Source: Pseudomonadota bacterium (GTDB lineage: Bacteria; Pseudomonadota; Gammaproteobacteria; Acidiferrobacterales; Acidiferrobacteraceae). Taken from it: 64,000 nt of DNA. How positions within the stretch are numbered: the stretch's first letter is position 1; each line of letters opens with the position of its first letter. The position numbers and the translations under genes were made by a program. Under the pieces are notes generated by a model. That model ran no database searches, was not told the DNA's origin, and worked only from the letters and a program-made list of their open reading frames with translations. Shown in pieces: positions 11,363 to 18,384 of the stretch. The DNA lies in the NCBI GenBank assembly GCA_021777535.1, contig JAJYDN010000003.1, positions 1-64,000 on the forward strand. Reading direction: 5' to 3'.

Positions 11363-12265
11363 ATGGCTCGCTTAGATCCCCAATTGCTGTCGACCTGGGC
11401 CGTTGTGGCGCGTTGCGGCAGCATCAACGCCGCCGCCAGCGCGCTCGCTGTGTCGCAGCCGGCAATCTCCAATCAGCTCAAACGTCTGGCCGACTGGTTC
11501 GGTGAACCCCTCTACCGCCGTCACGGCCGCGGCATCACGCTGACGCCGGCAGGCAGCCGCCTGCTGCGGCTTGCCCAGCAGTTCGAGACGGTCTTGAGCG
11601 AGGCCGAGTCGCTGCGGGCCGACATCAACGGCCTCCTGCAGGGGAGCCTCATCATCGCCGCAAGCCAGACCAATGCCGAATTCCTGCTCGTGCAGGCGCT
11701 GGCGGCCTTCCAGCGCGCCTACCCCGGTGTGTCGGTGCGTCTTCATGCCGGCAATTCGGAACAGGCGCGCCGGCGCCTGGATGTGGCCGATCTCGTGTTC
11801 GTGGAGGATGATCCGGGCGGTGATACGGCGGAGGGGCTGGTATCGATGCCGCTTCTCGAAAGCGAAGTGCAGCTCCTGTTGCCGCCGGGACACGCCCTGA
11901 ATGAGCGTCCCCTGGCGGAACGGATACCACTTCGGGATCTTGCGCGTGAACCGCTCGTCTGGCGCGAGCCGGGGTCGGGCATGCGTGACCGCGTGGAAAG
12001 CGCCTTCCGGGAGGCCGGGATCGTGCCCGCGGTCCGTTATGAGTTCAGCGGTGCTGCGGCCGTGCGGGAAGCGGTGCGCTGGGGTTTGGGCCTTGGTTTC
12101 GTATCGGCATTGGCGTCTCCGCCGCCGGATCTGTGTGGCCGCGGCCTCATGCCGCCGGTCGTCCAGCAGCTCTCTGTTCTCTACCAAAAACCGCTCAGCC
12201 GGACCGGCGAGGAATTTCTCGGGCACCTGAAGTCGCTGTCGCTCCCGCCATCGCGCGGGTCGTGA
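11363..12265 (+). CDS. LysR-family transcriptional regulator
   Basis: 300 residues. Residues 1-65 form the winged helix-turn-helix (STWAVVARCGSINAAASALAVSQPAISNQLK, then RRHGRGITLTPAG). A periplasmic-binding-type effector domain follows from about residue 90 (GSLIIAASQTNAEFLL). Start at ATG 11363 gives the standard N-terminus MARLDPQLL; the longer in-frame start at 11240 would add an atypical basic extension. Its position divergent from the LysE-type exporter suggests it controls that gene. Confidence 0.88.
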   Translation: MARLDPQLLSTWAVVARCGSINAAASALAVSQPAISNQLKRLADWFGEPLYRRHGRGITLTPAGSRLLRLAQQFETVLSEAESLRADINGLLQGSLIIAASQTNAEFLLVQALAAFQRAYPGVSVRLHAGNSEQARRRLDVADLVFVEDDPGGDTAEGLVSMPLLESEVQLLLPPGHALNERPLAERIPLRDLAREPLVWREPGSGMRDRVESAFREAGIVPAVRYEFSGAAAVREAVRWGLGLGFVSALASPPPDLCGRGLMPPVVQQLSVLYQKPLSRTGEEFLGHLKSLSLPPSRGS

Positions 12266-12291
12266 ATCCGCCGCCGCCGCGCTGCATGATC

Positions 12292-12297
12292 TACAAT
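12292..12297 (+). promoter_or_regulatory. Candidate -10 box
   Basis: TACAAT 22 bases before the ATG at 12320. The upstream -35 region is GC-rich and unconvincing. Confidence 0.4.
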
Positions 12298-12319
12298 GCG
12301 GGAAGGGGAAGAGGGGGAA

Positions 12320-14110
12320 ATGATGCGGCGCAACGGCGGATTCCTGCTGGTCACGGCCATCGTGATTCTGGTGGTGTTGAGTATTGTGGCGGTCGTCCTG
12401 ACCCGTCTTTCGGAAAACAGCGATAGTGCCGCCGATCAGGACGTCCGCGGGGCACAGGCCCTTTACATTGCCGATGCGGGCCTGAACGAGGCGAGCCTTG
12501 GACTGTTGACGCCGACCGTCTACGACCCGGCCAGCACGGGCAACCGGCAGTCCTGCGCGACGATCGCGGCGAATCTCACCAATGTGCCGGTCGGCGCCGG
12601 CATGTTTGCGGTGACCGGCACGCTCTATGCGCCCGGCGGGACCACGGCGCCCGTGACGGTGAACGGCGCGCTGGGGGCGCCCACCGCCAGCAATCCCACG
12701 CCCGCCATACCCTTTACGGGGTCGGCCGCCGCCTACGCGCCGGCCGGACGCATCATGATCGATTCCGAGGAGATCGACTACAGCGCCATTTCGGCAAGCA
12801 GCACTACGTGCGGCACGGTGCCCGCACCCTGCTTCGCAGGCGTGATGCGCGGGGTCGACGGGACGGTGGCGGTCGCGCACGCAGGCGGCACGCCCATTGC
12901 CCAGTATCAGTGTACGGTGCAATCGCAAGGCGGCGTGCCGGGCGTCGCGGCGCCCCGCGCGCTGCGCACCCTGACGGGGGCGATCCAGCTGCAGGGCGGG
13001 TGGGCGGTGGGCAGCGAGGATGCAGCCCTCCTCGGTACCCCGCCTCGGGATGTCCTGCAGTGGCAGTCGAATGCCTGGATACAGCAATTGCCTCCAGGAA
13101 ACCGTCTCAATGCCGTGACCTGTACGAGTTATGCGGATTGCTGGGCGGTGGGCAGTGCGGATCTGAAAGGCCTCGTGGGGGGCGCCAAGGTCGCCCCCGT
13201 GGCCACGGCGCTGCAGTGGAACGGGCAGGCATGGACCGCGCAGTCCGTGCCCGCGGCACTGCGCAATCACGACCTCGATGGCGTGGCCTGCATAAGCTAC
13301 GGCAACTGCTGGATGGTGGGCGCGTTCACGCAGACGGGGAACAGGCGATGGACCCTGCTGCATTGGACCGGCACCTTTACCTCCCTCGCGCCCAGCAATG
13401 TCCTGGCGGCGCCCCAGAGCACGACGACGCTTTCCAACAAGACCTACCTGCAGTACGACATCGACGGGGTCGCCTGTGCCAGCGCCGATCAGTGCTTCGC
13501 GGTGGGCAGTCTGGGTCTTGCCTTCTCCGAGAAAGGCGGGCGCCTGGGCGGCGGACCATCCCCCACCTTGCTGCTGGCCTGGAACGGCGCGGCCTGGGCC
13601 CTGGATACGAAGGCGCTGCCAGGGGGCATCGCCGGGGACGATCTCGATGCCATCACCTGTCTGCCCCAGGGGTGCTGGGCGGTCGGGAGCTTTGGCCGCA
13701 AGAAGCCGGTTGCCGTGTATTGGGATGCGGCCAATGGGAAGTGGACGGCTGATTCTCCCACCAAGGGCCGTGACCTCGAAAGCATCGCCTGCGTGACCGT
13801 CAGCGATTGCTGGGCCGGCGGCAGCTGGGCCACGGGCAAGCCGGTGCTGGAACACTGGAATGGCACGGCGTGGGCGGACGTGACGCCGGCTGCGGCGGCG
13901 GCCGACATCGATGGGCTGAGCTGCCTGAACGCCAACGACTGCTGGGCCGTGGGCAGCATGGGGTCCGGAACGCTGCAGCTTCTGCATTGGAATGGGGCGG
14001 CGTGGACCAATCTCAGCGCGGATATCGCCACCCGGGACGATCTCGAGGGGATTTATCTGATCGGTTCCCGCGGCGCGCCGCAGGCCGCCTGGCAGGAGAC
14101 GTTTCCGTGA
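12320..14110 (+). CDS. PilX-like membrane-anchored protein with seven-repeat propeller-like domain
   Basis: 596 residues. The N-terminus RRNGGFLLVTAIVILVVLS has a prepilin-like Gly-Phe junction and a 20-residue hydrophobic helix. As in PilX-type minor pilins, position 5 after the junction is not glutamate. Residues about 35-220 are a pilin-like region (ADQDVRGAQALYIADAGLNEA is typical of PilX-type proteins). From residue 226 seven repeats follow with the pattern L-x-x-(V/I)-x-C-x4-(D/N/Q)-C-W-A-V-G-S ... L-x-x-W-N-G-x-x-W, most with a cysteine pair. This suggests a disulfide-stabilised seven-bladed beta-propeller displayed outside the cell. No other pilus genes are adjacent. The ATG follows GAGGGGG. 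A surface or adhesin role is inference. Confidence 0.7.
   Translation: MMRRNGGFLLVTAIVILVVLSIVAVVLTRLSENSDSAADQDVRGAQALYIADAGLNEASLGLLTPTVYDPASTGNRQSCATIAANLTNVPVGAGMFAVTGTLYAPGGTTAPVTVNGALGAPTASNPTPAIPFTGSAAAYAPAGRIMIDSEEIDYSAISASSTTCGTVPAPCFAGVMRGVDGTVAVAHAGGTPIAQYQCTVQSQGGVPGVAAPRALRTLTGAIQLQGGWAVGSEDAALLGTPPRDVLQWQSNAWIQQLPPGNRLNAVTCTSYADCWAVGSADLKGLVGGAKVAPVATALQWNGQAWTAQSVPAALRNHDLDGVACISYGNCWMVGAFTQTGNRRWTLLHWTGTFTSLAPSNVLAAPQSTTTLSNKTYLQYDIDGVACASADQCFAVGSLGLAFSEKGGRLGGGPSPTLLLAWNGAAWALDTKALPGGIAGDDLDAITCLPQGCWAVGSFGRKKPVAVYWDAANGKWTADSPTKGRDLESIACVTVSDCWAGGSWATGKPVLEHWNGTAWADVTPAAAAADIDGLSCLNANDCWAVGSMGSGTLQLLHWNGAAWTNLSADIATRDDLEGIYLIGSRGAPQAAWQETFP
12992..14107 (+). repeat. Seven protein-level CW..WNG..W repeats
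   Basis: Each unit is about 45-70 residues and contains a WAVGS-like core and a WNGxxW-like core. Unit cores start near CAG-GGC-GGG-TGG (12992), then near 13111, 13276, 13465, 13645, 13780 and 13912. The DNA is not tandemly identical, so this is a protein fold repeat rather than a DNA satellite. Confidence 0.7.
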
Positions 14111-14160
14111 CCGGGCCGGGGATCAACGGACCTGCGGCAGGGGAGGGGCCGAGCGGCGGT

Positions 14161-14730
14161 ATGGATCGCTTTACGGTCGATGCGCAGGGATGGATGAGGG
14201 GTGTGCGGCATGTGCCATCACCCAACTACGACGCGCGCCCCCCGGGTGCCGCAATCGAGCTCATCGTTGTACACTCCATCAGTCTGCCTGCGGGACGGTT
14301 TGGTACCGAAGATGTCGAACGGCTCTTTACCAACCGGCTGGATACGGCGCAGCCGGGCTATGGCGATCTGGCGGGCCTCAAGGTCTCGGCCCACCTTTTT
14401 ATCCGCCGTGACGGGGAGGTCGTGCAGTTCGTGCCCTTTGCGGCACGGGCGTGGCATGCCGGCGTCTCCCGCTGGCAAGGGCGGGAGCGCGTGAACGACT
14501 TTTCGGTCGGTATCGAGCTCGAGGGCACGGATCGGGGCCCGTTCGAAGACAGCCAATACCGCGCGCTCATCGATGTGACGCGGGCCTTGGCGATGGTCTA
14601 TCCTGCTGTGGACAGTGAACGGCTTTGCGGACACTCTGACATTGCGCCGGGACGCAAGACGGACCCGGGTCCATTTTTTGACTGGGCGCGCTATCGTGCC
14701 GCGCTTGCCGCGGCAAGCGACCCCGAATAG
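14161..14730 (+). CDS. ampD: 1,6-anhydro-N-acetylmuramyl-L-alanine amidase AmpD
   Basis: 189 residues of the amidase_2 (zinc) family. AmpD removes the peptide from anhydro-muropeptides in the cytoplasm during wall recycling. The hallmark SPNYDARP opens the domain. Zinc ligands are the histidine of IVVHSIS, a histidine in the RAWHAG segment or nearby, and the aspartate of RKTDPGPFF; CGHSDIAPGRKTDPGP is the family signature. Start at ATG 14161 gives an N-terminus the same length as in characterised AmpD. A GTG at 14107 that overlaps the previous stop is an alternative. ampE follows 13 bases later, the usual pairing. Confidence 0.93.
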   Translation: MDRFTVDAQGWMRGVRHVPSPNYDARPPGAAIELIVVHSISLPAGRFGTEDVERLFTNRLDTAQPGYGDLAGLKVSAHLFIRRDGEVVQFVPFAARAWHAGVSRWQGRERVNDFSVGIELEGTDRGPFEDSQYRALIDVTRALAMVYPAVDSERLCGHSDIAPGRKTDPGPFFDWARYRAALAAASDPE

Positions 14731-17579: not shown

Positions 17580-18059
17580 GTGAACCTTCCACGCCGAACC
17601 TTCTTGAAGCAAGCCTTCTCTGGCACGGCCCTGGCGGTTGCTGCCGGCGCCGGACTGCTGCGGCCCACACAGGCCCTGGCCCGCACGTGGCCCACATGGC
17701 CCGCCCAAACCTTCCACATCAAGCACTGGCAGGCGCTCGAGCACGCGCTTTTTGGCAGCAAGCCTGTCACCCACGGAGGCGTGCATCTGCATGCCCCGCT
17801 GGAGGCGGAAAACGGGGCCGTCGTACCGATGGTCATCAGCACCAAGGTGGCGTCACCCAAGCGGCTGGCCCTGGCCGTCGACCACAACCCGTATTCGCTG
17901 GCGACTCTGGTCAATCTGACCCCGCGGGCATTTGGATTCTTCAATGTCCGCATCAAGATGGGCAAGACTTCTCGGGTCCGTGCCTATGTAGAGACCGCAG
18001 AACGCGTCTACACCGTGGACCGTCTGGTCAAGGTCACCGTTGGCGGCTGTGGAGGCTAA
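17580..18059 (+). CDS. soxY: Thiosulfate-oxidation carrier protein SoxY
   Basis: 159 residues with a Tat signal (RRTFLKQAF followed by a hydrophobic stretch), as expected for periplasmic SoxY. The C-terminal GGCGG carries the cysteine (residue 157) to which sulfur intermediates are attached in the Sox cycle. It forms a heterodimer with SoxZ, encoded ten bases downstream. The GTG start is preceded by GCGGAG seven bases away. The rest of the Sox system (A, X, B, CD) is not in the window. Confidence 0.95.
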   Translation: MNLPRRTFLKQAFSGTALAVAAGAGLLRPTQALARTWPTWPAQTFHIKHWQALEHALFGSKPVTHGGVHLHAPLEAENGAVVPMVISTKVASPKRLALAVDHNPYSLATLVNLTPRAFGFFNVRIKMGKTSRVRAYVETAERVYTVDRLVKVTVGGCGG

Positions 18060-18069
18060 GGGAGAATTT

Positions 18070-18384
18070 ATGCATATCGCCACCAGAATGAAGACCCGCA
18101 CGCGGGGTGACGTTACCGAAGTCTTGGTGCTTGTGAATCACCCGATGGATACCGGCCTCGTGAAGAGCCCGGTCACCCACAAGATCATCCCGGCCCATTT
18201 CATCAAGACGCTGACCATCGCCATCAACCACGAGCCGGCAGTGATTACCGACATGGGTATCGCCGTCTCCAAGGACCCTCTCATCGCCGTCAAGCTGAAG
18301 GGCGCCAGGAAGGGTGATCTGGTTTCGGTCGACTGGATCGACAACGAAGGCATGACCGGGCATGCGGAAAGCCACGTGAGCTGA
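18070..18384 (+). CDS. soxZ: Thiosulfate-oxidation carrier protein SoxZ
   Basis: 104 residues with the SoxZ immunoglobulin-like fold (TEVLVLVNHPMDTGL ... PAHFIKTLTIAINH ... KLKGARKGDLVSVDW). It pairs with SoxY to present the sulfur-bearing cysteine to the other Sox enzymes. Ribosome site AAGGGAGAATTT precedes the ATG. A strong hairpin lies 10 bases after the stop, suggesting soxYZ is a two-gene transcript. Confidence 0.95.
   Translation: MHIATRMKTRTRGDVTEVLVLVNHPMDTGLVKSPVTHKIIPAHFIKTLTIAINHEPAVITDMGIAVSKDPLIAVKLKGARKGDLVSVDWIDNEGMTGHAESHVS

Follow-up and report, generated by a model that had tools for sequence, protein, structure and literature searches.

The question raised by positions 12320–14110 of the window (the whole stretch of 64,000 nucleotides analysed here) is what a protein that begins like a prepilin and continues into a repeat domain may do where no pilus gene is adjacent to it. 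The reading frame is intact and real at the coordinates given in an earlier note on this DNA, from an ATG at 12320 to a stop codon ending at 14110 on the forward strand, and encodes 596 residues; the product is called P0001 below. Its neighbours in the window are a LysR gene and ampD/cobD-like genes. The remark in that note that no pilus genes surround it is locally true but misleading, since homologs in relatives sit in MSHA-type loci. The features used in the following are listed here with the evidence for each.

11363–12265, + strand: LysR-type regulator, upstream (context)
12320–14110, + strand: coding sequence of P0001, a K/PilX-type minor prepilin with an inserted propeller (open reading frame, Pfam, dN/dS)
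12320–12340, + strand: prepilin leader MMRRNGG, with a predicted prepilin-peptidase cut after Gly7 (sequence; Gly7 conservation)
12338–12487, + strand: PilX_N N-terminal helix, residues 7–56 (Pfam PF14341; within helix 6–63 of the model)
12509–12988, + strand: pilin beta domain, residues 64–223 (AlphaFold2 strands 94–103, 197–206 and 214–223)
12989–14068, + strand: seven-bladed propeller, residues 224–583 (motif count, repeat HMM, AlphaFold2, structure matches)
12986–13087, + strand: blade 1, the three N-terminal strands, no Cys pair, completed by residues 577–581 (HMM, AlphaFold2)
13106–13243, + strand: blade 2, Cys pair (HMM, AlphaFold2)
13268–13387, + strand: blade 3, Cys pair (HMM, AlphaFold2)
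13451–13603, + strand: blade 4, Cys pair (HMM, AlphaFold2)
13643–13750, + strand: blade 5, Cys pair (HMM, AlphaFold2)
13772–13879, + strand: blade 6, Cys pair (HMM, AlphaFold2)
13904–14011, + strand: blade 7, Cys pair (HMM, AlphaFold2)
14048–14062, + strand: closing strand of blade 1, residues 577–581, in the DLEGIYLIG segment (AlphaFold2)
14090–14101, + strand: C-terminal strand AWQE, residues 591–594 (AlphaFold2; tail comparison)
14161–14730, + strand: ampD-type amidase, downstream (Pfam Amidase_2)

Analysis of the N-terminus, MMRRNGG|FLLVTAIVILVV, reveals a class III (prepilin) signal, MMRRNGG|FLLVTAIV, with Gly at position -1 and a hydrophobic helix that covers residues 6–63 in the model; Gly7 is conserved in nearly all aligned homologs. 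The mature protein starts F-L-L-V-T and thus has no Glu at position 5, as is also the case in the homologs. PilX_N (PF14341) is recognised by Pfam at residues 7–56 with 27.6 bits, against a curated cut-off of 25.5, and P0001 is the sole protein of its own genome to match this family above the cut-off. The leader cut site and the Pfam score thus bear out the PilX-type anchor proposed in the earlier note. A prepilin peptidase gene was found in the same genome. All three species of the genus retain the P0001 gene, and comparison of two sister species reveals purifying selection on its codons (dN 0.17, dS 1.32). A search of NCBIfam with P0001 assigned no family, and searching the PDB by sequence yielded a single chance match. 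The promoter that the earlier note ascribed to the gene was not recovered: no sigma-70-like promoter was found in 12150–14300, and the gap between lysR and the ATG measures only 54 bp.

In the repeat domain there are seven occurrences of the motif [CG]W.VG..W....W; in 20,000 shuffled versions of this domain the count never exceeded one. The repeats are WAVGS...W..W units, six of the seven containing a pair of cysteines (for example CTSYADC), which agrees with the seven mostly cysteine-paired repeats described before; such a pair would clamp strands one and two of a blade together. Both cysteines are missing from the first unit because its first strand is the C-terminal segment DLEGIYLIG. The fold prediction advised by the earlier note was performed with AlphaFold2. 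An earlier run on an alignment of 8 rows modelled the propeller alone (pLDDT 58), and the final model, from an alignment of 22 rows, reaches a pLDDT of 80.7 and a pTM of 0.82 and comprises the helix 6–63, the pilin beta domain and, after these, seven four-stranded blades arranged in a ring. Strands within residues 226–256 form blade 1 together with the C-terminal strand 577–581, and the short strand 591–594 comes last; the latter is, putatively, the final strand of the pilin domain. Completion of a blade by a C-terminal strand is the usual closure of propellers, and the closure foreseen in the earlier note is reproduced in the model, where the DLEGIYLIG segment supplies the missing strand of blade 1. 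The closest structures to the model are seven-bladed designs and natural seven-bladed propellers, with a Z score of 29.5 to the design 7bid (2.3 Å, 271 residues), and the top Foldseek ranks are taken by YCF48 and kelch domains. The seven HMM units, the strands with their closure and the match to 7bid are those of a closed seven-bladed ring, as a prediction, and the two-domain model (a pilin plus a second folded module) is that of a modular pilin.

Matches between a predicted model and known structures would indicate fold and not function. YncE, YCF48, kelch and WD40 proteins were rejected as functional guides, fold alone being in common, and no function was transferred from them. The Rax2 propeller of Pfam (18.8 bits for a cut-off of 28.8) and DUF2510, also scoring under its cut-off, were discarded as well. 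Residues 144–190 (12749–12889), within the pilin domain, form a segment GRxxIDxExIDY...RGxDGTxAxAHxxGT that is absent in the other K clade; we take its GRxxIDxExIDY...RGxDGTxAxAH part to resemble motifs of phage tail proteins.

We further analysed the pilus genes present elsewhere in the genome, a search also advised in the earlier note, and found an MSHA locus on contigs C36 and C29 and a second minor-pilin cluster on contig C5. The MSHA locus spans two contig ends, C36 carrying mshE, mshG, the major pilin and wzy, and C29 carrying H-I-J and mshI to mshN; two of its markers, the MshL secretin (TIGR02519) and the c-di-GMP-binding N-domain of MshE (NF053729), score over curated cut-offs. Both here and in the sister species G001, where the locus is unbroken, no more than about 70 bp lie between J and mshI, and there is no K gene at this place. 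The MSHA-type order in relatives is mshE, mshG, major pilin, often a wzy-like gene, H-I-J, a K homolog, mshI, mshJ, mshL, mshM and mshN. The K homolog follows the minor prepilins in the MSHA loci of G004, G019, G053, G054, G056 and G021/G026/G034, and it precedes mshI except in G054 and G056, in which further prepilins, MshP and MshQ intervene; the contig of G019 stops before mshI. Contig ends interrupt some of these loci, and of the three small prepilins the motif scan overlooked one or two in some. In the tree, the pilin part of P0001 groups with the in-locus gene of the sister genus G004 (support 99/99). The orphan gene between lysR and ampD is the best match for the K gene missing from the MSHA locus; since it is unlinked to this locus in the genus, its assignment to the MSHA pilus rests on elimination and on the relatives. 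Relatives of genus g2 of the compared genomes, which we take to be Acidiferrobacter-like, have lysR adjoining ampD with no gene between. The simplest scenario has the K gene leaving the MSHA locus for the lysR/ampD gap in the ancestor of the genus, and this relocation away from pilus genes hides the nature of the P0001 gene. A wzy/O-antigen-ligase-like gene, possibly involved in pilin glycosylation, lies between the major and minor pilins in MSHA loci of the order (L105 9600–10874, and relatives).

A search for homologs in a sample of 369 genomes of the class yielded matches in 16 genomes besides the own one (E ≤ 1e-6), and secreted proteins of the repeat family were also recovered from Actinomycetota and Chloroflexi. 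Twelve of the 16 have the homolog beside prepilins of an H-I-J set; in these, in G004 and in the relatives of the order it comes fourth after H-I-J, and not in the own genus, where it is an orphan. The H-I-J prepilins of G093 are found 0.7 kb upstream of the homolog, the homolog of G372 is truncated at a contig end, that of G072 is an orphan as in the own genome, and in G183 this propeller is part of a secreted protein that is not a pilin. Three of the 12 in-locus genomes (G150, G110, G368) have K proteins with an insert other than the WxVG propeller, and K genes with a seven-blade propeller are present in about 3% of the sampled class genomes. The notion of a fusion that is isolated, uncommon and lacks a pilus system is not supported, the same architecture being found in MSHA loci across Gammaproteobacteria.

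By an iterated repeat HMM, 16 K proteins of many families, including one truncated at a contig end, each contain exactly seven units, as does one non-pilin relative. The f5 genomes G021, G026 and G034 give five to six units by HMM and seven by eye, and the counts for G019 (5+6) and G056a (4) come from fragmented assemblies in which repeats may be collapsed. G053 and G054 show seven units, a half unit and then six, which, to judge from the sequence, would be one seven-bladed ring set into the blade 1 loop of a second; these putative ring-in-ring K subunits of about 896 residues are encoded at L080 2030–4714 (G053) and L081 8434–11121 (G054). A second orphan K-propeller gene is found in G072 (L176 1213–2730), outside any pilus locus and near a mur/mra region, which suggests that relocation of such genes may have happened more than once.

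We therefore propose, with a probability of about 0.72, that P0001 fills the K (PilX/GspK) position as tip minor pilin of the MSHA-type type IVa pilus of its genome, bears an inserted propeller and is a probable adhesin. Its K identity is well supported; assembly into the MSHA pilus, the tip position, adhesion and a ligand are inferred. K/PilX subunits have no Glu5 and occupy the very tip of the filament, where those of ordinary type IV pili carry the separate propeller protein PilY1 (PMC9934059, PMC7541494), and modules grafted on pilins have a role in adhesion (PMC8179133). According to this proposal, prepilin peptidase would cut P0001 after Gly7, and the disulfide-stapled seven-bladed propeller would be inserted in the pilin domain directly ahead of its last strand. 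Without Glu5, the protein would sit atop the H-I-J minor pilins, whose genes are still in the MSHA locus, and so would cap the filament and display the propeller at its very tip, where it would probably bind a surface, glycan or protein ligand. One chain would thus do the job of PilX and PilY1, in a genome without MshQ: a search of the own genome for DUF6701/MshQ (PF20419) gave no match, and 10 of 60 relatives have one. The tip or surface attachment protein suggested in the earlier note is retained as the best reading; the promoter and the isolated, pilus-less setting given to it are not supported.

Comparison of the K proteins among relatives reveals that the insert is variable. K proteins of the Acidiferrobacter-like genus and of G040 are short and without insert, those of G018, G028, G023 and G056b have other inserts, and those of G150, G110 and G368 have inserts that appear beta-helix-like by eye. 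The same slot with differing inserts is seen at L079 4228–6108 (G056), L111 14108–15112 (G028), L114 4901–6007 (G018), L182, L183 and L187, the types being other W-rich repeats, a lone beta-rich domain and beta-helix-like domains. Nearly all K proteins end with a W-x-[EQ] tail (AWQETFP, QWHEIES, AWREVFP, TWEEFN, and VTGWAEQ in a short K), the exceptions being G150, G110 and the second K genes of G023 and G043. The constancy of this tail points to the loop ahead of the final pilin strand as the entry site of inserts, and a closed propeller, whose ends meet, suits insertion into a loop. We put forward tentatively, at somewhat less than even odds, that the MSHA K tip subunit is a cassette site where receptor-binding domains are swapped before the last strand, changing the targets of the pilus; the swapped elements would be seven-blade propellers, a nested propeller, beta-helix-like or other domains, or nothing, with the W-x-[EQ] end fixed, and the genus studied here would even have relocated the cassette gene away from its locus. 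Since some K proteins are without any insert, an adhesive module is not essential to K.

The variability of the insert also bears on the idea that P0001 is the MSHA K tip subunit with a propeller that acts as a priming or scaffold domain holding a secreted tip protein, or as a protective cap. PilY1 primes assembly besides adhering (PMC7541494), minor pilins of the CofB type are adapters for a secreted protein (PMC8179133), and the propeller of P0001 belongs to no recognised ligand family; the replacement of the insert by unrelated domains, or its absence, among relatives is nevertheless what is expected of a ligand-facing and not of a structural module, and we consider this idea unlikely. Still less probable is service in the other type IV pilus (contig C5) or in the type II secretion system in place of the MSHA pilus. 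The own genome does encode a type II secretion system along with the second minor-pilin cluster on C5, and minor pilins can be exchangeable between systems (PMC9934059), but both C5 systems have a subunit without Glu5 of their own (PilX-position, L103:7928–8512; GspK-position, a weak match at C5:36621), the MSHA locus alone is without one, and the homologs of P0001 in relatives are located in MSHA loci. A displaced, unassembled orphan, that is a membrane-anchored periplasmic propeller without a filament, would fit the place of the gene outside the pilus locus, with no pilus gene near and no recognisable promoter, but it is made very improbable by purifying selection, the intact cleavage site, conservation in all three species of the genus and an MSHA locus without replacement K. 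The locus context led us to reject the reading as a generic extracellular propeller whose N-terminus is hydrophobic by chance.

The C5 cluster itself (L103 4548–9708) encodes a PilW-like protein, the PilX-like protein without Glu5 and a protein of 1126 residues with no Pfam match. The PilY1 search of the own genome gave no match, but its controls were silent too, and the latter protein, which follows the PilX of C5, is for this reason referred to as being in PilY1 position only.

P0001, as the MSHA K subunit proposed above, shares with PilX/GspK pilins the absence of Glu5, PilX_N, a predicted pilin fold and, in relatives, the fourth place in an H-I-J-K set. The pilin sheet of GspK likewise accommodates an inserted domain (PMC8179133), but this is an alpha domain where P0001 has a seven-bladed propeller, and the P0001 gene lies outside the operon in its genus. 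The likeness to PilY1/PilC concerns a propeller shown at the tip atop PilX, the function of P0001 resembling PilX and PilY1 in one chain; PilY1, however, is a protein of its own, soluble and equipped with an ordinary signal peptide and the domain PF05567, and its propeller family differs in sequence from that of P0001, in which Pfam finds no PF05567 match and the N-terminus is a prepilin leader. PilB (vWA) and PilC (lectin) of Streptococcus sanguinis are, like P0001, prepilins bearing a module, proposed to be at the tip and adhesive (PMC8179133, PMC9934059). Their module is C-terminal and PilC retains Glu5 (PMC9934059), whereas P0001 is a K without Glu5, with an insert before the last strand and a closed ring as module. 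MshP is a prepilin without Glu5 at the same relative position as K, and MshQ (DUF6701) is a large protein after MshP; this set coexists with the K-propeller set in G054 and G056, whereas in the genome of P0001 there is no DUF6701 and one protein replaces two. Secreted proteins with WxVGx..W repeats from Actinobacteria and Chloroflexi belong to the repeat family of P0001, often with 7 or 14 units, but a prepilin N-terminus was seen in none of the 27 examined.

Modular pilins and tip K subunits are already known, and the seven-bladed propeller in an MSHA K is a new variant of them. A literature search, in which few subscription journals were covered, found no paper describing a PilX-propeller fusion or a K-inserted propeller of MSHA pili, and none on MSHA pili in Acidiferrobacterales. 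MshQ, MshM and MshF are named as being of unknown function (PMC9815625), and a K of the P0001 type is a concrete tip-adhesin candidate for MSHA pili without MshQ, spread through Gammaproteobacteria. It also indicates that a propeller and a PilX anchor, which usually belong to two proteins, can be combined in one chain. Moreover, a tip subunit may be encoded far from its pilus locus, and locus-based annotation misses such genes. P0001 is further a candidate for attachment to solid substrate in an apparent sulfur oxidiser; that such attachment would be useful to it is speculation.

Two further observations were made. A soxY and soxZ pair is present in the window at 17580–18381, which fits the apparent sulfur oxidiser, and secreted WxVGx..W repeat proteins of Actinomycetota, Chloroflexi and others are encoded at L003–L005, L008 and other loci.
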